A stretch of DNA of 64,000 nt from Colwellia demingiae (GTDB lineage: Bacteria > Pseudomonadota > Gammaproteobacteria > Enterobacterales > Alteromonadaceae): positions 1 to 64,000 of the forward strand of contig NZ_VOLT01000006.1 of the NCBI RefSeq assembly GCF_007954275.1. The letters are read 5' to 3'. Shown piece after piece: positions 1,072-11,513 of the stretch (its first letter is position 1; every line of letters starts with the position of its first letter). The notes below the pieces were generated by a model. That model was given only the letters and a program-made list of their open reading frames with translations. It ran no database searches and was not told the DNA's origin. The translations under genes were made by a program, and so were the position numbers.

Positions 1072-3300
1072 TTATATTTTTAAAAGTTCCTGCAAATAGG
1101 TTTGTCGCTTACTCGCATTACTTTGAGTTTTAATAGCACTGATTAATTTTTCTTTTGGGCCAACAATATGAATTTCTTCTTCGGCTCTTGTGATTGCAGT
1201 GTAGAGCCACGCTCGATCTAAATTACTTCCTCCTGACAAAGCAACTATAACCCTAGGAAACTGTGAACCTTGCGCTTTGTGGAGGGTTATCGCATAACCT
1301 GCTTTTAATGTGTAAAGCAATGATTCAGTTAATGAGACAAATTCAGATTCTTCATCTTCAAAGTCATCCATTTGTACTTCACCCAATATACTTCCATCTT
1401 GTTCAACAGAAATTAATTTACCTAAAGAGCCGTTTTGAACGCCAACGTCATAGTTGTTTTGTGTAAATAAAACAGGATCGTTTTGATAGAGATTATCGCG
1501 ATAATGTTGACCATCCCTTTCATACTCAATTCGCTTTCCATTAGGGTTTAACTCAAGTTGACATTTTGCATTGATTTTATCAACTAAGGCATTAGTAGGG
1601 GTTACCACACGACTATTTTCTGGGGCTTGATGATATAGTTCAACGCATTTATCTACAACAAATTCAAATCCTGTATCATGAAACGTAATGGCTCCTGTGG
1701 TGAGCTTAGGAGGAATTACCCCTTCATTTATTAACTTAGAATATTCCGGTATGCCACTACTTGCCCCTTGTCGTTTCACTATGCTTAGCTCAGTGTTATG
1801 TATTAATCTCGATTTTACTATATCAGCAAGTATTTTTCCGGCACCGATAGGAGGGAGTTGGTTCGGATCACCAACGAATAAGATCCGAACCTCAGGTGCA
1901 ATATGGGTGGCGATCTTAAAAATGGTTGGCAAGTCAATCATTGAACTCTCATCAATGACTAGTAAAAACTTGTTATCAGCTACATCCTCAATTGCATCTT
2001 CTCTTAAAAACTTAGCTATGGTTGAGCATGGTCGACGAATGCTTTGACGCATCCTCATAGCTGCACGACCACTTAATGCTACAGCTTTTATCTTATAACC
2101 AATTTCTTCATAAGCATTTAGGACAGTATTAAGTACAGTTGTTTTTCCCGTTCCCGCACCGCCTGTTATGCAAGAAATAGCATAGCTAATTGAAGTCATC
2201 ACTGCTTCACGTTGTTGTGGTTCCAAATTAAAAGGGACTGACTGAAATGCGCTAATACAAGCAGCATCTTCGACCTCATCATATATCTCGCCTAGCTCAT
2301 GTAATTTCAAGAGACGTTTTACAACAGTATTTTCCATAATATAAGTTGAAGTGAACTGATACATGCCGCTTTTAGGATAGATGATAAATGCTTTTTTATC
2401 GTAGCCTCCTTCAAGCGCCTTACTCGCTAAATCATCAGATCCTAACATTTCCTTTAATGGTTTTATTAATTGTGAACGATGTGCAACAGTATGCCCCTTA
2501 GATGCATGTTTTCTCATCACCTCAACTACAGCAGCAACCAATCTTCGAGTGTCACAATCTGTGATATCAAAGTGCACCTTTGCAATTCGATCATTTAGCT
2601 TGAAGTCCATTCCAAAAGTGCTAAGGGAATATGGATTAGATTTGATCAAAACAGTTGGATCAGGATCAAACTCAATATCCTCTTTTTTTACTAACGAACC
2701 GTCTGTCACTCCATTGAATTTATAAATACGTTTTTGAATAGCTACTGGGATGTCATGTTCTGTGAAGAATTTTGAATATTTTAGGTAAGAGAATTGTTCA
2801 AACCCTGTTATTAAAGCTACAGCAGATATTTTTCCCAATCCTTTTAATGTCATAAGTTTAGCTAGATCTTTATTTTCTAAAATTTGATATATATTCTCGC
2901 CAAACTCTTGCCAAAGCTTCTCGGCTGTAGACAAACCAATCCCCTTGAAATGAGGTGTGTCAGCAATAAATGATTTAAACCCAATGGGGTTTTTAGAAAG
3001 AATTAGTTCAGCTTTTACAACATTAACATGATGTTTTTTAATATAATACTTACCATCAAAACTAGGCGTTTCTTCGTAACTAGCATTACCTTTAATCGAC
3101 CATATTTCACCTTCGTGCGGATCTGGTGAAATAGTGTCAGGAGCTTTTATCGTGTAGTAATCAATTTTACTAAGAACCCTATGCTCTGTTTTATGAACGG
3201 ATACTGCGCTAAAAAGAATATAATCTTTAGTCTTTTTAGTGCTAGTGAATATTTTCGTAATTCGAACGGTCAAATCAGCCTCGTATCCTGTCTGCATCAT
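1072..3300 (-). CDS. RecD2-like SF1 DNA helicase of the integrative element
   Basis: A 742-residue helicase related to RecD2/TraA-type superfamily 1B enzymes, expected to unwind DNA with 5'-3' polarity. Visible motifs are a helix-hairpin-helix-like segment near 150-165 (LMTLKGLGKISAVAL), a Q-motif-like PQQREAV near 361, Walker A GGAGTGKTT at 380-388, Walker B DESSM near 450, GDPNQLPPIG, and a C-terminal TLHKAQGSQFPRV box typical of UvrD_C_2 domains. The start ATG at 3300 overlaps the stop of the upstream gene as TAATG, indicating translational coupling. It is the last gene of the minus-strand recombinase block and may help replication or resolution of the excised element; that role is inferred from position only. 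Confidence 0.85.
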   Translation of the reverse strand: MMQTGYEADLTVRITKIFTSTKKTKDYILFSAVSVHKTEHRVLSKIDYYTIKAPDTISPDPHEGEIWSIKGNASYEETPSFDGKYYIKKHHVNVVKAELILSKNPIGFKSFIADTPHFKGIGLSTAEKLWQEFGENIYQILENKDLAKLMTLKGLGKISAVALITGFEQFSYLKYSKFFTEHDIPVAIQKRIYKFNGVTDGSLVKKEDIEFDPDPTVLIKSNPYSLSTFGMDFKLNDRIAKVHFDITDCDTRRLVAAVVEVMRKHASKGHTVAHRSQLIKPLKEMLGSDDLASKALEGGYDKKAFIIYPKSGMYQFTSTYIMENTVVKRLLKLHELGEIYDEVEDAACISAFQSVPFNLEPQQREAVMTSISYAISCITGGAGTGKTTVLNTVLNAYEEIGYKIKAVALSGRAAMRMRQSIRRPCSTIAKFLREDAIEDVADNKFLLVIDESSMIDLPTIFKIATHIAPEVRILFVGDPNQLPPIGAGKILADIVKSRLIHNTELSIVKRQGASSGIPEYSKLINEGVIPPKLTTGAITFHDTGFEFVVDKCVELYHQAPENSRVVTPTNALVDKINAKCQLELNPNGKRIEYERDGQHYRDNLYQNDPVLFTQNNYDVGVQNGSLGKLISVEQDGSILGEVQMDDFEDEESEFVSLTESLLYTLKAGYAITLHKAQGSQFPRVIVALSGGSNLDRAWLYTAITRAEEEIHIVGPKEKLISAIKTQSNASKRQTYLQELLKI

Positions 3301-3770
3301 TAAAGCTCACCTAAGTCCGCAAACGTATCACTTAACTCGCTAAAACGCCCAAATTTCCCTCTTAGGGCTGCATTTTCGGCTTTAAGCTCTATTATCTGCT
3401 GTTCTAAGTCTGGCACTCTCGATTGCTCTCTAGCAGCTTTAGTTGATTCTTTTTGTATATCTTTTGGCTTTAGTAACTCTTTTTCACCTTTTTCAGTTAA
3501 CTGAGGGAGTACATTGCGATCTCTTAAATCATCTTCAAGTTGTTTAAGTTCTGGGCATATATCGGGATTATCTCTCAAAGTCGTTTTAGAAAATCCACAC
3601 CCCTTCGCAATTAATCGGCGATTCAATTGGCCACTTCTTGATATGATATCTACATATTTTTGATCGGTCATGCTATCTACCCAAACACGCCATTTTTCTG
3701 TATTAATATCTTTGTCTACGGAGCTCATTCGATTTCCTTTTTCTTCTGATAATCGCTTTTTCCTTTCCAC
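3300..3770 (-). CDS. Small DNA-binding/coiled-coil protein of the recombinase block
   Basis: This 156-residue basic protein has a likely helix-turn-helix region around residues 45-70 (RSGQLNRRLIAKGCGFSKTTL). A C-terminal heptad-like coiled coil follows (LEQQIIELKAENAALRGKF), ending in an acidic tail. The layout resembles KfrA- or TnpC-like accessory proteins that accompany transposon or plasmid recombinases. A small protein of this kind also follows the recombinases in gamma-mobile-trio islands, but I cannot confirm homology from sequence alone. The first methionine is at 3770; a second possible start is Met15. The stop overlaps the helicase start. It probably acts as a recombination auxiliary or repressor. 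Confidence 0.65.
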   Translation of the reverse strand: MERKKRLSEEKGNRMSSVDKDINTEKWRVWVDSMTDQKYVDIISRSGQLNRRLIAKGCGFSKTTLRDNPDICPELKQLEDDLRDRNVLPQLTEKGEKELLKPKDIQKESTKAAREQSRVPDLEQQIIELKAENAALRGKFGRFSELSDTFADLGEL

Positions 3771-3779
3771 TCACCATGA

Positions 3780-4427
3780 TTATCCCTTACGGTTTAACTG
3801 AAGAGTGAGCTCACTATTGGCTTTTCTTAATTGTGCGATAGTTGTTTGAGCAACATCATAGTCTTTTTTCAAATCTTTGTGTTTTTGCGCCAATGCAGCA
3901 TGCGAATCCAATACTTGTGAATTTAAAGCTGCCTCAAAATAATCAACCAGATTCTTATTTTTTTCGTTTTGTAGTTGCAGCTCAAGATCAGACTTTAATG
4001 AAGTCAATTCTGGCTTTGTTAAGCGTTTACCTGATGTGATATTACCAACAACATCACTCCAATAAATTGAAAGCTTCCCGTTTAGATTGCTTATATGCCC
4101 CAGTAATTTTGGTATGCTTTTACGATCTTTTCGAATATTGGAGCGGTTAATATTAAGCCTCTCACAGAGTTGCATCACGACAATAGTTCTTTCTGTTATC
4201 GTCAGATGTTTTACACACTTTTCTATAGGTGTCTCCGGAGTTTGCTCTCTAAGTTCTAATACACGCCTATCGATTCGTTCCTTAATATCTTTAAATTCTA
4301 CTTGTAATGAATCGAATAAATTTTTTGCTTTTGGAGAAAGGTCAGCAACCCAAATTGGCTCTTTACCTGATTCGGTAGAGTCTGGTACAGAAAACTGACT
4401 AAGATCTATCATCTTGTTCCCACTCAT
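3780..4427 (-). CDS. Recombination-auxiliary-like coiled-coil protein
   Basis: This 215-residue protein has no enzyme motif that I recognise. Its N-terminal half is charged and helical, and a region around residues 90-130 (LTITERTIVVMQLCERLNIN) resembles a small DNA-binding helix bundle. The C-terminal 60 residues form a coiled coil. It overlaps the 3' end of the upstream large recombinase by 29 bases, so the two are probably co-translated. In strand-biased circularizing elements a small auxiliary gene follows intA-tfp-intB in this place, and in gamma-mobile-trio islands GmtX is a comparable small protein. Assignment to either is inference from gene order and size. Confidence 0.6.
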   Translation of the reverse strand: MSGNKMIDLSQFSVPDSTESGKEPIWVADLSPKAKNLFDSLQVEFKDIKERIDRRVLELREQTPETPIEKCVKHLTITERTIVVMQLCERLNINRSNIRKDRKSIPKLLGHISNLNGKLSIYWSDVVGNITSGKRLTKPELTSLKSDLELQLQNEKNKNLVDYFEAALNSQVLDSHAALAQKHKDLKKDYDVAQTTIAQLRKANSELTLQLNRKG

Positions 4428-6378
4428 CTAATATCTTTGTTCCGTTTTTAACCACTTCCTTACTAACAGAGTGAGCACGGGTTTTAATAGGGAACTCCTT
4501 TAAAAACTCTTGGTGAGAAATAACAATTCGAGTAATTTCTTCTTTATTACTGTTCTTGCTACTCACATTATGTAGGCAGCCGGAACATAATTTGAAACAT
4601 CCATTTTCAATATTTGGAGATTGCGTCTCTTTATCTAGACATTTCGACAATCCTTTAGTCTCTTTTATTACTATGCAAATTCCATATTCGTGGACTTCTA
4701 TACTCTCTATGCTCTCTGATACCTCCTTCAGTAATTCTTCAACCTCTGAAGGCTCTATAACAGCAACATCTTTAACTTTTCTTTTAATAAACAATGCTAA
4801 GTGCCCTACGAACGCATCATCAATATCATCAAATGCCATTCTTTTCACTAGCTCATCTATATAATCCCTCTCAATCTCTTCTGACACTTCCTCAGTAAGT
4901 TTATTATCTGTGTACCTTTTGGTGAATTTACTGCCATAGGCATGCCTAAAGTGCTGACGAATTGCTTCAAGCACATTTCCGTCAAATCTCCTTATAGCAA
5001 ACTCAGCAAAAGAGTGTCTAAGCATATGCGGATGCAAATGGTTGCATACATTAGCAAATTGACTTCCGTATTTTTCAATAGACAAAGAATAATGATTGCT
5101 CAGAATACTACGTAGAGTGTTTTCACTAGCACATGTGAATTTTTTCGTAGTTTTAAATCTTGATTGGTGCATTTGGGCAAACAGTGGTGGACGAATCCCG
5201 TCGTCTCGACGCACCTTTTGTGTATAAGATACTTCAACCATAATGTTAGCAGCTTCTGCAACCAACCCTGACATAGTTCTGACTTCTGTTAATCCGTAAT
5301 TCGTTTTTACAAGATCACTTTTGAACACCCAAACGCCATCGCTTTCTTGCTTATAGTCGTCTGCATAAATTGAGCTAACTTCGCTTATCCTGATGCCTGT
5401 TAATGATAAAAATATAGTGAGAGCAGCACCATAGATCCGTCGTATAGTTTGAACCAATTCTTCATAGTTGAAAGGCATTCCCACAACTTCGTAACCAAGT
5501 ATACTTTCAAATAATTTTTTTAACGCTGTGTAAGCTTTAACAACTCCAACCTTCCTTTTCCTCCCATTAGGGGTAATGAATGGTGAAGCGCAAAACTCTT
5601 CAAAGAATCCATTATTAAACAACTGTAAGTGACTGATGGAATTGACACTTTGCTGATGCTTAAAAAATGCAACAGCTAACTTAGTTTCTTCGCTTCTAAT
5701 AACCTCTATAGCGTGACCTAAATTAAGCATGGCATTAACAATCGGCAAAGAGTCCCACCCATTCCCTTCGCGCCATTCATGGGGAACGATGCCATGATCT
5801 TTAAGTATCGGTTCTACCGTACTCATTAGGAAAGTTTTAGGTAGAGTGACATTGATGCCATCATAAATCATCCCTTTAAGATATAGCTTTCTTGAGTCTA
5901 GCAATAGTGAATAAAGTGATTCAACTGGACCGTGCCCAAGTATTTCAATATTTTCACAATTTCTTTGAGCTATGCTGCCTTCTATGTAAAAATCGATTTG
6001 ATTTTGTAAAGTGCTTAATATTAATTTTTGACAATCTTCTTCCGTCCAGTTCCTCATTGGCGTATCTGGTTTATTCATACTTGCCCAAATAAAAATCCGC
6101 CTAAGGTTAGAGTGATATGCCTTGGCAGTGTTAATATTACACGTTATTTGTCTAGTATTTACATCTACGCCTCCACACTTCTGAATAAATAGGGTCTTGA
6201 AATTGGATAGCCATAAATCAGACATATTCAATTTTTCGCTGTTGAATTCGAATTCACATATTTTTGGTGAATCATCAGCAGCAGAAACCTTATCGTTCGT
6301 GACAAACAATATCTCACTCGATAAGTCGTTAATATTAGGAAATTTTATATCTTGAAACTTTAACTGTGTTACTTTCAT
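4399..6378 (-). CDS. Large tyrosine recombinase (IntB-like)
   Basis: This 659-residue site-specific recombinase has catalytic residues visible in the C-terminal half: Arg330 in LTGIRISEV, His451 and Arg454 in HPHMLRHSF, His479 in QHFRHA, and a tyrosine nucleophile at Tyr489 in KRYTDNK. A CxxxCxxC cluster (CFKLCSGC) near residues 595-605 suggests a small zinc-binding tail. About 300 residues precede the catalytic domain, much longer than phage integrases. It is the third gene of the recombinase trio; the middle gene ends 9 bases upstream. It probably performs excision or integration together with the 375-residue recombinase. Confidence 0.85.
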   Translation of the reverse strand: MKVTQLKFQDIKFPNINDLSSEILFVTNDKVSAADDSPKICEFEFNSEKLNMSDLWLSNFKTLFIQKCGGVDVNTRQITCNINTAKAYHSNLRRIFIWASMNKPDTPMRNWTEEDCQKLILSTLQNQIDFYIEGSIAQRNCENIEILGHGPVESLYSLLLDSRKLYLKGMIYDGINVTLPKTFLMSTVEPILKDHGIVPHEWREGNGWDSLPIVNAMLNLGHAIEVIRSEETKLAVAFFKHQQSVNSISHLQLFNNGFFEEFCASPFITPNGRKRKVGVVKAYTALKKLFESILGYEVVGMPFNYEELVQTIRRIYGAALTIFLSLTGIRISEVSSIYADDYKQESDGVWVFKSDLVKTNYGLTEVRTMSGLVAEAANIMVEVSYTQKVRRDDGIRPPLFAQMHQSRFKTTKKFTCASENTLRSILSNHYSLSIEKYGSQFANVCNHLHPHMLRHSFAEFAIRRFDGNVLEAIRQHFRHAYGSKFTKRYTDNKLTEEVSEEIERDYIDELVKRMAFDDIDDAFVGHLALFIKRKVKDVAVIEPSEVEELLKEVSESIESIEVHEYGICIVIKETKGLSKCLDKETQSPNIENGCFKLCSGCLHNVSSKNSNKEEITRIVISHQEFLKEFPIKTRAHSVSKEVVKNGTKILDEWEQDDRS

Positions 6379-6387
6379 TTATATCCC

Positions 6388-8463
6388 CTATATTAATGAC
6401 GCGAATGGAAAACTAAACTTTTTAGACTTCGCCTTGCCTTCTGCTAAAATTGATTGCGAAAATTCATCTAACAATAATGTTAAATACGAATGGTGTGCCT
6501 TAAACCTGACTGCTTTTTTCTCATGATCAACTTTAATTCTTGGCAATTCTTTTTCAATGTGTTTAATTTTGGAAATTATAAGAGCAGCAGTTAAAGGAGT
6601 AGCTACCACAACTCTCTTATTGTTTAATTCAATATCACCAATATCACCAATGACATCCCCAAGTTCTTTTTCAATCAATTCATACAAATCTTCCGCTTCA
6701 ATTGCACTATCATTTATGCCTAACTCTTTTTTGAACGATTTCATATCTAGGACTTTGGTTTTATTAAAAAGATCGCTAACCAGTAATGCATCTTGTTCCA
6801 TAGAGTCCCCAACTTGGGATGCAAAGGATCTCAAAGACTTAATTTTTTCAGGAGAATTGGAACGAGCATTATAAACGTTTTTTTTCGTAGCTAAGCTCTG
6901 GGCCGTTAGCTCTGCACCTAGTTCTTCGTTTAGTTTTTGATCAACCTCTTTATTGCTAGTGTTGTCTATTTTGTCATCCATTCTTACCCTTGACATTGCA
7001 ATAGCGTTAATACTAAGAGATAAAACACCCTCAACAACATTACTATCGGTTCCATAGGAAGCGTGACCTTTTTTAGCTCGATGATTATGAGATATTAAGT
7101 TCTTAACATAAAACAAAAAAGGGTTCGCGTCCTCTCCAACCTCCTTCATCAAATTATTGTGTAACTCTGTCTTCTCATTAACCATATCCGTAAAGAATTT
7201 TTGCATTCTCGATGAGGTAAGTCCAAGTTGTCCCAAAATATCCATTTTCCCTGAATCTTTATGATATTGTATCAAAAGAGGGTTTTCGCCTGTGTGCTGT
7301 TCTTTAAATCTATCAATAAAAGTTGAATAAGCCTTGTATATAAGTGAACCTTTTCGATATATTAACGTTGCGGAATCAATGCCTCTTCGCCTCTTCCCAT
7401 AACCAATTTGTACGCCTTTGTCGTTAATGACAATATCTTTTAAGCACAAATCACGAATGCCTGAGGATTGAATTCTTTCTGATGCAAGCAGACATTGCAT
7501 AGCGAACACTTGTTCGTGAGATAGACCATAAATATCATTTAAAATATAACCATTCGTCGCTGTATGAGTCGTTTTTTTCTTATCAACAACAACCGCTGTT
7601 TTAACAGTATATTGATTCGTTTTTTTCGGAAGCCGCACCCATTTTTTAAACCATGATTTATTCCTAGTTAACGAGTCATTCTCTTGAGGCATATACCATA
7701 GAGGAGGGGGGTAATTGTGAGATAATCGCTCTAAAACCCAATTATCATTCTCTTCTATTACAGCGTTAAAAAGGGGAGCATGTAATCTTAGGGCATTTTT
7801 ATATTGGTCATGTATATGAGTCGAAGGAATCCCCATTAACGGGAAAGAATCCGTAGATTTTCGGTAGGCTTCTATCGCAAACCCCTTGACATTGGGGTGC
7901 TTAATAAAAAGTTTTCTTTTTTCATCAAACTTCAGAATTATATAACAACATACAGACCTTAATGATTTAATGGCCTCTGTATTGTCGTATGGCGTATTAG
8001 TAAACATTGATACTAAATCTGGATTAGGCGTTGTATTACTCCCCTTTAAAACAGGTGCCTTATATAATAACTGTAAAAATTCTTCTCTCCAGTATTCGGA
8101 CGTCACGGAGCGTTCTTCTCCATATAACCTGAGTGGATACAGAAGCCAGTTAAGCCTTGACCTAACCGTATTACCAGTAACACCACCTTTAATGAACTGC
8201 ATGTATGTATTAAAAATTTTTTCTGGCATAGCTTTGTGCTGTATTATTTGATCACTTGCGACACCAATGAAAGAAATAACCTCCCTAGCTATATTTACTC
8301 GATAATCCAAGACACACACCTTAAACTTGGGACTATGCATATAATCAATATAAAATAAAAATAAAGGTACATCTCGAAAATCACTCGGGAGTACATAGTT
8401 AATACTCCCCACAGAGAATTCGTAGTGATTCAATTCTCTTATAGTGATACTTTCAAGTCTCAT
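6388..8463 (-). CDS. Recombinase-fold protein lacking visible catalytic residues
   Basis: This 691-residue protein is sandwiched between two active-looking tyrosine recombinases. It has an arginine in a plausible core-domain context (LLASERIQSSGIRDLCLKDI), and the surrounding fold resembles a tyrosine recombinase catalytic domain. I find no HxxR box and no C-terminal GH..Y motif. Proteins of this size and place are called Tfp in strand-biased circularizing elements and GmtZ/VPA1269-like in gamma-mobile-trio islands; the resemblance is by order, length and absence of motifs. It starts at ATG 8463 sharing a base with the stop of the upstream recombinase (TAATG). It probably has a structural or targeting role in the recombination complex. 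Confidence 0.6.
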   Translation of the reverse strand: MRLESITIRELNHYEFSVGSINYVLPSDFRDVPLFLFYIDYMHSPKFKVCVLDYRVNIAREVISFIGVASDQIIQHKAMPEKIFNTYMQFIKGGVTGNTVRSRLNWLLYPLRLYGEERSVTSEYWREEFLQLLYKAPVLKGSNTTPNPDLVSMFTNTPYDNTEAIKSLRSVCCYIILKFDEKRKLFIKHPNVKGFAIEAYRKSTDSFPLMGIPSTHIHDQYKNALRLHAPLFNAVIEENDNWVLERLSHNYPPPLWYMPQENDSLTRNKSWFKKWVRLPKKTNQYTVKTAVVVDKKKTTHTATNGYILNDIYGLSHEQVFAMQCLLASERIQSSGIRDLCLKDIVINDKGVQIGYGKRRRGIDSATLIYRKGSLIYKAYSTFIDRFKEQHTGENPLLIQYHKDSGKMDILGQLGLTSSRMQKFFTDMVNEKTELHNNLMKEVGEDANPFLFYVKNLISHNHRAKKGHASYGTDSNVVEGVLSLSINAIAMSRVRMDDKIDNTSNKEVDQKLNEELGAELTAQSLATKKNVYNARSNSPEKIKSLRSFASQVGDSMEQDALLVSDLFNKTKVLDMKSFKKELGINDSAIEAEDLYELIEKELGDVIGDIGDIELNNKRVVVATPLTAALIISKIKHIEKELPRIKVDHEKKAVRFKAHHSYLTLLLDEFSQSILAEGKAKSKKFSFPFASLI

Positions 8464-9590
8464 TAATCTTCATCCTTCTTTTTTTTGTTATATCTTTCGT
8501 ATCGACTGTCCTTCAATGAAAGTGTGTTTAATATGTCAACCCTACCCATCACAACAGCATAATAGAATACGTATATTTTGGTCATCTCATAATCCGTATG
8601 GCCCATCCATTGACTCACAAATACCATTGGGTCTTTACCCTTTTTATAACAGTAGGTTACTGAATTTGTCGCGTAACACTTTCTTAAAGTGTGATAACGG
8701 CGAGCAAGCCAATCATCTATGTTTTCCACCCCCTTTAAAATCCGAGCTTTCACACACCTTTCAAAGAGCTTTGTGCCAAATTTCTTATCGACTAGGTCTT
8801 TACCCGATTTAGCAGCCATTAAAGATCCTGTAAGGTGCGATCCTCGATTCCAAATAAAATTGTAAATTGCTTCAGCCAATTCGACACTTACTTGTGCCGA
8901 TCTCATTTTATTCCCCTTTCCCATAATCTTTAATTTCATTGATTTGGGAGTCCAATCCTTTTGCTTAGGAAGTAACTTTCTTAATTCCTTTACATTCAGG
9001 TTATCGTAACTTACCAATTCATGCGTTCTAAACCCTGCGTAATACCCTAACTTAAGCGCAATCTCGTCTCTTTCACGTTTAAATGCACTAGTAGCAGTGA
9101 TATTAGCAAGTACATCCTCTTCAAAAGATTTTTTATCCATGTAAATTTGAAGTATTTCAGTTGATAGAACTTCTTTTTTATTTTTGACTTTTTTTAGACC
9201 TTCCCACGTAAATGAGATATTTTTCAAATTATCTGAGATCCCCAAATTAGCCATTTTCTTATAAAACTCATTTAATATAGTTGCATGATAGTTAACCGTT
9301 TCAGGTGAATTTTTTAATTTTTGAACTCTGTAACCATTAAGATAACCTGTCATCTGAGCGTCAGTAACTTGATCGTACTTTAGATCTCCTCCACTGCTAT
9401 CTAAAACTCCAAAAAAGTCTTTCAAAACTCTAGCGTAATTTTCAGTGGTACTTATAGCATTGCCAGCTTTAGCTAAGTCAAGAAGATAGAGGCCAGGCTC
9501 AAGCAAAGGAATACCATCATTATTTACCACGCAATAAAACTCTAAATATCGACCTCCAGAAGATACATTTTTAACTTTAGCTACATCCAT
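8463..9590 (-). CDS. Tyrosine recombinase (IntA-like)
   Basis: This is a site-specific recombinase of 375 residues when started at the ATG at 9588-9590, which has a GGGGTGAT ribosome-binding site seven bases ahead; the longer open frame to 9671 begins without a comparable signal. Catalytic residues in this numbering are Arg188 (YAGFRTHEL), His300 and Arg303 (RRYHTLRKCYA), His331 (WMGHTD) and a tyrosine near 340 (KIYVFY). The N-terminal region looks like a SAM-like core-binding domain. It is the first of three recombinase-type genes with tight overlaps, so all three probably act in one reaction. Confidence 0.85.
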   Translation of the reverse strand: MDVAKVKNVSSGGRYLEFYCVVNNDGIPLLEPGLYLLDLAKAGNAISTTENYARVLKDFFGVLDSSGGDLKYDQVTDAQMTGYLNGYRVQKLKNSPETVNYHATILNEFYKKMANLGISDNLKNISFTWEGLKKVKNKKEVLSTEILQIYMDKKSFEEDVLANITATSAFKRERDEIALKLGYYAGFRTHELVSYDNLNVKELRKLLPKQKDWTPKSMKLKIMGKGNKMRSAQVSVELAEAIYNFIWNRGSHLTGSLMAAKSGKDLVDKKFGTKLFERCVKARILKGVENIDDWLARRYHTLRKCYATNSVTYCYKKGKDPMVFVSQWMGHTDYEMTKIYVFYYAVVMGRVDILNTLSLKDSRYERYNKKKKDED

Positions 9591-9710
9591 TTTTATCACC
9601 CCATGTGTTACTGATAAACAGGTTTGAGATCTGCGGACAAGAGTATTTAGTGAATGTGTCAAAAGCACCAAATTAATAGATATGAGATCTTAACGATTTA
9701 TGACAAAGCG

Positions 9711-9968
9711 TTAAGAAAAGCCTCCATACTCTATTTGGCGGATATAATGAAGAAAATCATTCATTTGATTATTTCGGCAGATCTCTAGCCCTGTCTTTCC
9801 TCCAAGAGCTGGGATTTTCTCATTTTGAAACCAACTAACAGCTTGTCTATCTGAGCCTGCCCAACTAGCTATTAGGGGAAAAAAATATATTTTCTCTTTT
9901 TCATCAAAAAACTCACCACAACATTTTTCTAGCTTGTGATAGTTAGAGCTAATATCTTTCTTTTCCAC
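9711..9968 (-). CDS. DUF2384 (MbcA/ParS/Xre antitoxin toxin-binding) domain protein
   Basis: The C-terminal 50 residues fit the toxin-binding domain of Xre/MbcA/ParS antitoxins: a WF motif, then PALGGKTGLEIC and a final YIRQIEYGGFS. The usual N-terminal HTH is short or missing in this 85-residue protein. Translation starts at GTG 9968, preceded by AGAGG seven bases upstream. No RES or other toxin gene is adjacent, so it is not an intact toxin-antitoxin pair here. It lies 120 bases upstream of the first recombinase in the same direction, where it could act as a small regulator of the element; that is inference. Confidence 0.65.
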   Translation of the reverse strand: MEKKDISSNYHKLEKCCGEFFDEKEKIYFFPLIASWAGSDRQAVSWFQNEKIPALGGKTGLEICRNNQMNDFLHYIRQIEYGGFS

Positions 9969-10070: not shown

Positions 10071-10175
10071 AATGCATTAATATGACACAATATTGACAGG
10101 AACTAAATGCATTAATATGACACTATATTGACAGGAACTAAATGCATTAACATGACACTATATTGATAGGGGTTT
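10071..10175. repeat. Three tandem 35-bp repeats with promoter-like content
   Basis: Units start at 10071, 10106 and 10141 with an exact 35-base period. Each begins AATGCATTAA and contains ATGACAC, TATTGACAGG and variants; copies one and two differ at a single base and copy three has drifted at its end. A TTGACA hexamer (10093-10098) is followed, after 17 bases, by TATGAC (10116-10121), a plausible sigma-70 promoter pointing away from the recombinases. The first unit also holds the palindrome TTAATGCATTAA. They may be recombinase arm sites, iterons or operators. Confidence 0.8.
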
Positions 10176-10838: not shown

Positions 10839-11513
10839 TTATCGATAACACCATGACATTTGTTGATATTTTAGAGTCATAAAAATACAAGGATATTTAT
10901 GACTCTTGTCAACAAAAAGAACCAAAAAGAACAAGGGGAGATAATCTGTCCAATCTTCAAAAGTGGCGACACGAAATAAAGTCAGCATAGAGATGGATAC
11001 ATCGCCCCACAACACTTCATTAATCGAGTGAAAGTACATACTACCAATCGCAGCATAGATATAGAAAATAACAAACATGAGTAGCGCGATATAGCCCATA
11101 CGAGGTATCGCTTTGAGTAATGCATTAATCAGTAAGCGCAATTCTGGCACCATGGATACTAAACGCAAAACACGAAATACGCGCAATAAACGAGCGAGTA
11201 ATACGCCAGAGCCACCCGATGGAACTAGGCTACCAATAACAATGATGGTATCAAAAATATTCCAGCCACTTTTAAAGAAACTCTTTTTCTTTGGGCAAGC
11301 TAAGTAACGAATAGATATTTCTACCGCAAAAAATACGGTAACCGCAACATCCATTAGCAATAAAATAGCAACGACGTTAGAAGATAAATTATGTGTTTTT
11401 GCGCCAATCAACAACGCAGACAATAAAATAACTGCAATAACAATACCTTGAAAAACTTTACTATTATCTATTTTTCTTAATTGTCGTTGAGCTTTTAGTA
11501 CTAAAAGACTCAT
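10839..11513 (-). pseudogene. Voltage-gated cation channel, truncated before S6
   Basis: The protein is a one-domain voltage-gated channel related to the bacterial sodium channels (Ion_trans family). Helices S1-S3 span about residues 20-100. The S4 voltage sensor has arginines every third residue (R108, R111, R114, R117), S5 runs about 140-160 and the pore filter reads ATFEDW at 183-188. Family members continue with a hydrophobic S6 and a helical tail. Here the frame ends after a low-quality 36-residue tail at residue 224. The sequence at the break contains an 11-bp inverted repeat. The start codon overlaps the stop of the upstream MBL hydrolase (TAATG). A channel lacking S6 should not conduct, so I call it a truncated gene. 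Confidence 0.65.
10861..10914. repeat. Inverted repeat at the break point of the channel gene
   Basis: AGAGTCATAAA and TTTATGACTCT form a perfect 11-bp stem around a 12-base spacer. An outer TGTTGA/TCAACA pairing extends the structure. It lies inside the aberrant C-terminal coding tail of the channel gene. It may be a small palindromic insertion or a hairpin left by a deletion. Confidence 0.6.

Follow-up and report, generated by a model that had tools for sequence, protein, structure and literature searches.

The 64,000-nucleotide stretch of Colwellia demingiae considered here (the window, i.e., positions 1–64000 of contig C31, position 1 being the first base of that contig) begins with a tight block of seven minus-strand genes, tyrosine recombinases and a DNA helicase among them, and raises the question of what kind of mobile element combines such proteins. 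In a preliminary description, the block was taken for a compact integrative element without cargo. We assign a probability of about 0.78 to the reading that it is the recombination half of an element resembling the strand-biased circularizing integrative elements (SEs), one that inserts into host genes, carries a spare of the broken gene, and undergoes helicase-aided copy-out. Because the window opens at a contig edge inside a repeated insertion sequence, the block comprises no more than the left half of an element, and the absence of cargo cannot be judged from the window. In the following, G000 is the genome of the window, and C13, C24, C29, C31, and C33 are contigs of that genome.

Recombination genes and their order

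All seven open reading frames lie where the preliminary description had placed them (Table 1), and the stop/start overlaps that it listed are likewise present, two of the form TAATG (3300 and 8463) and one of 29 bases (4399–4427). The intA frame was listed as 8463–9671 (402 residues, TTG start), and the starts of its relatives favour 9590, which gives 375 residues. The order intA-tfp-intB-srap and the sizes of the genes are the same at the left ends of the elements in the window, in L080 (a locus of G034, a metagenome-assembled genome from the genus of the window), in L081 (DT_21), in L077, and in G913, a finished one-contig genome from the same family. This is the order of SEs, as the preliminary description had noted, and the resemblance extends to IntA and IntB.

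SE profiles were built from nine SE-type loci. Two of these, pSEA1 and pAQU1, are linked to published SEs, and seven were chosen among 50 records as tblastn relatives. Compared by hhalign, IntA matches SE IntA with a probability of 98 (E 4.9e-14, 300 columns) and IntB matches SE IntB equally well (probability 98, E 1.7e-13, 535 columns), i.e., position for position, with probabilities below 6 for the cross pairs and for IntA against IntB within one family. An earlier profile comparison with a single SE gave probabilities of only 15.8 and 4.8 for IntA and IntB, and the nine loci were thus needed. In IntB, the likely catalytic set Arg330, His451, Arg454, His479, and Tyr489 is invariant in five of five sequences, as are His300, Arg303, Trp328/His331, and Tyr340 in IntA. 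Pfam and NCBIfam gave nothing convincing for the 691-residue protein in the Tfp position or the 215-residue protein in the Srap position; the former has no Pfam match over the cut-off, and no catalytic set was recognised in it by eye.

With the IntB profile, matches at E 1e-20 were obtained in 15 of 395 genomes of the family. Seven of these, including that of the window, score above 195 bits, and the other eight match in the C-terminal part only. A search of 394 genomes of the order with the single IntB sequence gave matches in 12, mostly weak and C-terminal only. Plasmid searches with the 659- and 691-residue proteins returned no match, and scans with the IntB alignment found no relative in viral contigs and two in genome contigs.

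The insertion site and the probable second half of the element

The gene at 10839–11513 is a truncated ion channel that matches Ion_trans positions 2–195 of 241, whereas the intact relative in L030 spans positions 2–239. A channel frame of 269–323 codons is present in all 38 other congeners, although three of them (G003, G015, and G027) have a second channel type, 56–62% identical, as their best match, and homology ends at window position 10944 in each of the five close relatives compared. The preliminary description had regarded a site occupied in all related genomes as an argument against an element, and the congeners thus speak for one. The missing 3′ part of the channel gene is found on C29, beside a DUF188 gene, and the split gene and the terminal motifs place the termini of the element at window position 10944 and at C29:414573. 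We infer from the split gene, rather than from a contiguous read, that C29 and C31 hold the two ends of one insertion.

The junction on C31 reads GGGAGATAA-TCTGTC-CAATC, and that on C29 reads GACA-TATAAG-TTATCTCCC. When the host flanks are rejoined over TCTGTC, they fit 18 of 19 congener loci without gaps and with 6–21 mismatches of 86; the outlier is L048, with no match within 22 mismatches. The target is a conserved coding motif, FEDWTD. The six bases beside the left motif are host sequence, identical in L034 and L044, and the six beside the right motif are foreign. This asymmetry is direct at the channel site, and it applies to two dinB sites (below) with the left core inferred from codons. 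It corresponds to the rule described for SEs, where the 6 bp beside C come from the target and the 6 bp beside C′ from the donor (PMC9345347).

About 5.6 kb inside the right end, C29 carries an intact channel of 264 residues, which is 53% identical to the host type (L030) and 78% to the single channel that was matched in G003 and in G027. The element appears to carry a spare copy of the gene that it breaks and, as far as can be judged from sequence, the intact homologue would spare the host. A precedent is SE-6283, whose target gene, bcp, is also among the genes that it carries (PMC9345347). Breaking and carrying is seen here for two further genes, channel and dinB, in four elements. A second element of this kind in G000, on C24, interrupts dinB immediately ahead of the DMDCF codons, and an element at the same position is also present in DT_21, a genome that probably belongs to another genus of the family. 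The right ends of the dinB elements, found by pattern, follow the KIIHI codons of the broken gene and carry an intact DinB-type polymerase of 352 residues. In the carried copies of both kinds, the DNA is altered at the target site. The fourth element, in G913, is complete (22,594 bp) and occupies the same channel site with the same 6-bp core position. Its gene order is intA-tfp-intB-p215-channel homologue, followed by RND efflux, HlyD-type, cation-efflux, and ResIII-helicase genes, and then by the channel 3′ part; IntA, Tfp, and IntB are 43–49% identical to those of the window, and no relative of VPA1267 or RecD2 was detected by tblastn in the 100 kb searched there.

Further loci show related arrangements. 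The element in L080 (6365–6372) cuts a gene, which we take to be ppnN, within a conserved NICTGCGPGAM motif; the broken fragment matches a nucleosidase domain, and the end begins TTATCC. Neither a second copy of this gene nor a right end was found in the G034 assembly. At C33:250205–313496 of G000 (L099–L101, which cover all but the last 3.5 kb), the right half of the dinB element is followed by about 60 kb of genes that look sugar-catabolic by eye; the contig then ends in the repeat also seen at the start of the window. In L081 joined with L116–L119, at about 30.4–35.0 kb, a three-gene cluster that may hold recombinases lies downstream of the dinB element of DT_21.

The inverted termini share a perfect 9-bp repeat, TTATCTCCC, with little similarity beyond it, compared with imperfect inverted repeats of 13–19 bp in SEs. 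The left-end pattern TTATCT-NN-CCTTGTT and the right-end pattern TTATCT-N15-GACATYRGTG are common to the element of the window and the two dinB elements, exact at three left and three right ends, respectively; the patterns were derived from these very ends, and the exact matches are therefore not independent proof. Among the fetched sequences, one other exact match was obtained, a left motif in G954 (L135:3689). It lies away from intA, 2.3 kb before this gene, and is possibly a relic end; element ends were looked for in G954 and not found. A TTGAC[A/G] sequence is present 32–33 bases inside all four left ends compared (TTGACG in C24) and, by eye, at 32 bases in G913. In the window, three tandem 35-bp repeats lie between the left terminus and intA.

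Inward from the right end, the island on C29 encodes an AAA ATPase (AAA_21), an Xre-type regulator, a ResIII-type helicase, and the channel. The best PADLOC match of the ATPase is Ppl (87.7 bits, C-terminal part only), the helicase shares 57–59% identity with a helicase of the dinB elements, and the regulator–helicase stretch has a 77% match in G012. Further along are genes for an acyl-CoA dehydrogenase, an enoyl-CoA hydratase, a sulfatase, and a TonB receptor, among others, before the contig ends at 469614. Comparison with seven congeners each covered the initial 16.5 kb and the final 18.6 kb of the island, the middle 20 kb (L053) being left out. Excluding host flank, short pieces, and the contig-end repeat, the matches are short stretches at 63–77% identity or little more; core sequence is at 81–89%. 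If all 55 kb on C29 belong to it, the element measures about 66 kb, which would exceed the largest SE reported in PMC10214605 (58.5 kb). With an intact channel homologue and other genes in the right half, and efflux genes in the G913 relative, the description of the element as being without cargo fails, and it is probably not cargo-free.

A minimal, cargo-free element that ends near 903–1071 and is inserted into a XerC-like recombinase gene is barely credible. A truncated recombinase does lie directly beyond the helicase, but the split target gene and the motifs place the termini elsewhere, no right-end motif is present near 903–1071, and no open reading frame of at least 60 residues with the missing N-terminus of the recombinase occurs between 9968 and 10839. 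We likewise reject a right end at this fragment, with the termini at 10944 and C29:414573. The fragment itself matches only positions 161–293 of 295 of the XerC model, is cut near 903 (by eye), and sits between the contig-start repeat and the helicase as a remnant of some other element.

The insertion might also be an immobile fossil, old and later split by insertion-sequence rearrangement. The first 200 or so bases of the window are a repeat with similar sequence at seven other places in the genome, four of these at a contig start or end; it is probably an IS110-type element, an assignment made by eye on the translated ends of C24 and C29 and not by a family search. Such repeats occupy the contig ends of C31, C33, and (by eye) C24 and C29, and the 55 kb that follow the right end on C29 contain mostly catabolic genes. 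On the other hand, the reading frames of the core and module genes, the likely catalytic residues, and both element ends are intact, and we consider a fossil unlikely.

Table 1. Features at the left end of the window and their basis
Feature	Position	Strand	Basis
End of multi-copy repeat, probably IS110-type insertion sequence	1–201	none	Contig break
C-terminal fragment of XerC-like tyrosine recombinase, 5′ part missing, remnant	431–903 (reading frame 431–850)	−	Phage_integrase, 69.9 bits
RecD2-like SF1 DNA helicase, 742 residues, second gene of VPA1267–RecD2 module	1072–3300	−	TIGR01448
VPA1267-family coiled-coil protein, 156 residues, first gene of module	3300–3770	−	NF040697
Auxiliary protein in Srap position, 215 residues	3780–4427	−	Relatives in L080, L081, L077, G913
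IntB, large tyrosine recombinase, 659 residues	4399–6378	−	Phage_integrase; profile match to SE IntB
Protein in Tfp position, 691 residues	6388–8463	−	Relatives in L080, L081, G913
IntA, tyrosine recombinase, 375 residues	8463–9590	−	Phage_integrase; profile match to SE IntA
Small DUF2384-like (Xre/MbcA/ParS_C) protein, 85 residues, extra gene between terminus and intA	9711–9968	−	PF09722
Three tandem 35-bp repeats	10071–10175	none	Between left terminus and intA
TTGACA, candidate promoter-like or recombinase-binding sequence	10907–10912	−	32 bases inside terminus
Left terminal motif C, TTATCTCCCCTTGTT, with the final base of the element at 10944	10930–10944	−	Same form at two dinB-site left ends
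6-bp target-site core, host-derived	10945–10950	none	Rejoined flanks; identical core in L034 and L044
5′ part of disrupted ion-channel gene, host	10945–11513	−	Ion_trans; congener homology ends at 10944

The VPA1267–RecD2 module

The last two genes of the block encode a VPA1267-family protein (NF040697, 154.5 bits, cut-off 90) and a RecD2-like helicase (TIGR01448, 348 bits, under the cut-off of 500). The link with a dedicated helicase had been called unusual, which does not hold. One further region was taken from each of the nine genomes of the genus with a VPA1267 match (9 of 39), giving ten loci together with the window, and at all ten a RecD2-like helicase frame directly follows VPA1267. 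The same holds for plasmid pMAO6, where a Gamma-Mobile-Trio (GMT) element is annotated gmtY-integrase-gmtX-VPA1267-AAA ATPase; by tblastn, its VPA1267 and ATPase genes are related to the pair in the window. The recombinases ahead of the pair differ, with GMT proteins in G009, another set in C13 of G000 and in G003, and the SE-like set in the window and G034. The operon on C13 (66048–74198; L014/L015) contains three other genes, at least two of them recombinase-like, a small gene, a diverged VPA1267, and a RecD2-like helicase, and it is 93% identical in DNA to an operon on C59 of G003. C31 and C13 are the only contigs in G000 with VPA1267 matches. In G819 (L139:3032–7209), an SE-like core is followed by a resolvase gene, a 175-residue frame in the VPA1267 position that was not recognised as VPA1267, and a RecD2-like helicase; this arrangement may represent a diverged module. 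The 85-residue protein near the left terminus has a weak PF09722 match (18.8 bits, under the cut-off of 24.5), and short proteins like it are found near two other VPA1267 loci. Among 369 genomes sampled from the class, four gave a VPA1267 match at E 0.001, and the one over the family cut-off is the genome of the window.

The pair and the recombination genes differ in their degree of conservation. Between the window and G954, the four recombination genes are 24–29% identical, but VPA1267 is 59% and the helicase 74% identical. Between DT_21 and the element on C24, the other four genes are 79–86% identical and the module is present in DT_21 only. By these two comparisons, the pair is an optional module that moves on its own.

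The preliminary description had also likened the block to GMT islands, and a reading as a GMT island or a degraded derivative of one would account for the VPA1267 family match over the cut-off and for the combination with a RecD2-like helicase, which is common to the GMT operons of G009 and pMAO6. This reading is most improbable, since the NCBIfam models for GmtX, GmtY, and GmtZ match no protein of the window at E 0.1, but detect the genes of G009, our positive control, with 139, 413, and 578 bits (the last slightly below the GmtZ cut-off of 600), and profile comparison with the GMT proteins of pMAO6 gives probabilities of at most 2. GMT membership is refuted by these tests, and what stands of the likeness is the shared helicase module. 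Of the families proposed for comparison in the preliminary description, profile searches thus support VPA1267 and the SE IntA and IntB, and give nothing for GmtX/Y/Z or the SE Tfp.

The main rival to a role of the helicase in copy-out is a role in defence, the pair being cargo and not transposition machinery. Its optional presence between close relatives fits this, as does the occurrence of RecD-like helicases in PADLOC models (best typeIV_RecD, 162 bits). We nevertheless find defence the less convincing explanation, and rather unlikely, considering that the pair keeps its place, with stop/start overlaps, after at least three sets of recombinases without profile similarity to those of the window, that other cargo lies beyond it in pMAO6 and DT_21, and that VPA1267 has no PADLOC match. 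A literature search found no paper that combines strand-biased circularizing elements with a tyrosine recombinase and a RecD-type helicase. Tentatively, and at somewhat less than even odds, the VPA1267–RecD2 pair may be a copy-out module that can pass between elements. Its accessory helicase would then join multi-recombinase elements that are not related to one another (GMT, the SE-like group, and at least one other set) and convert the one-strand exchange made by tyrosine recombinases into the replicative formation of circles, in elements that replace a host gene by an immune version of their own.

Proposed mechanism and relation to known systems

In the mechanism that we propose for the SE-like element, IntA and IntB, together with the Tfp-position partner and the auxiliary protein in the Srap position, would recognise short inverted terminal motifs beginning TTATCT, and the recombination proteins would place the element, together with a 6-bp spacer, in conserved coding motifs of particular host genes. 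The carried diverged homologue, altered at the target sequence, would spare the host. By analogy with work on SEs, exchange of one strand between the two ends would give a circular copy, with the donor staying in place and no empty site being formed. Where present, the VPA1267–RecD2 module might load the helicase onto the nicked intermediate, where unwinding of the strand that had been exchanged would assist copy-out; this step is a guess, to which the conserved position and the exchange of the module point. To our knowledge, copy-out of SEs involves tyrosine recombinases and no other known strand-nicking enzyme, and its mechanism is still being worked out. The close relatives at the same dinB target, with and without the module, make the question of the helicase directly testable. 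Breaking and carrying, reported for bcp in SE-6283 and now found also for the channel and dinB, suggests a general strategy for insertion into conserved coding motifs, and by searching for the missing half of the broken gene, with the carried homologue next to it, the far end of such elements can be found in fragmented genomes.

A number of points weigh against this reading. Against the nine-locus SE profiles, the Tfp- and Srap-position proteins give probabilities of 0.15 and 2.1, also when seven sequences are used there is no match, and the predicted structure of the 691-residue protein (pLDDT, the predicted local distance difference test, 42.6) is too poor for judging the fold. The ends in G913 (TTATAT at both) fit neither terminal pattern within two substitutions, and the left end in G034 (TTATCC) has no more than TTATC and the TTGACA position in common with the others. 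In G913, the two 6-bp cores are the same, which makes the asymmetry uninformative there, and the host origin of the dinB-site left cores is judged from codons and not from an empty dinB site. The physical link, the size, and the inner cargo of the element in the window are deduced from halves on separate, repeat-ended contigs. The halves of the dinB element in DT_21 are on different contigs as well, and about 95 kb from the left end contain no exact copy of the right-end motif, from which it follows that rearrangement or misassembly occurs in this group. As for the module, four of the nine other VPA1267 loci in the genus score under the family cut-off, and helicase relatives with no adjoining VPA1267 gene exist, as in a Salmonella IncC plasmid. 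Strand bias, copy-out, and the role of the helicase are predictions only.

Of the known systems, GMT islands (GmtY-GmtZ-GmtX) share VPA1267 and the RecD2-like helicase at the end of the operon, but GmtX/Y/Z were not detected in the window. The GInts (ginABCD) also have three recombinase-like proteins and a small auxiliary protein. According to PMC5385486, their third protein lacks the first catalytic arginine, whereas here it is the second protein that has no recognisable set; this comparison is with the published description of GinA–D. Tn554, likened here by description only, has a large and an ordinary tyrosine recombinase, target specificity, and a 6-bp footprint in common with the present element, but no counterpart of Tfp, as described in PMC10214605. 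The closest resemblance is to the SEs (SE-6283 and SE-6945), with the same four-gene order, profile homology of IntA and IntB, inverted termini, the 6-bp host/foreign asymmetry, and a broken target gene whose homologue is carried (bcp in SE-6283). Unlike in SEs, the termini begin TTATCT, Tfp and Srap show no detectable homology, and a VPA1267–RecD2 pair is present in the window; neither of these two genes was detected by tblastn in any of the nine SE-type stretches. Tfp and Srap are the signature by which SEs were searched for in PMC10214605, and because no homology was detected in these two proteins we class the element as SE-like rather than as an SE. In our reading, it represents a new SE-like group with a plug-in helicase.

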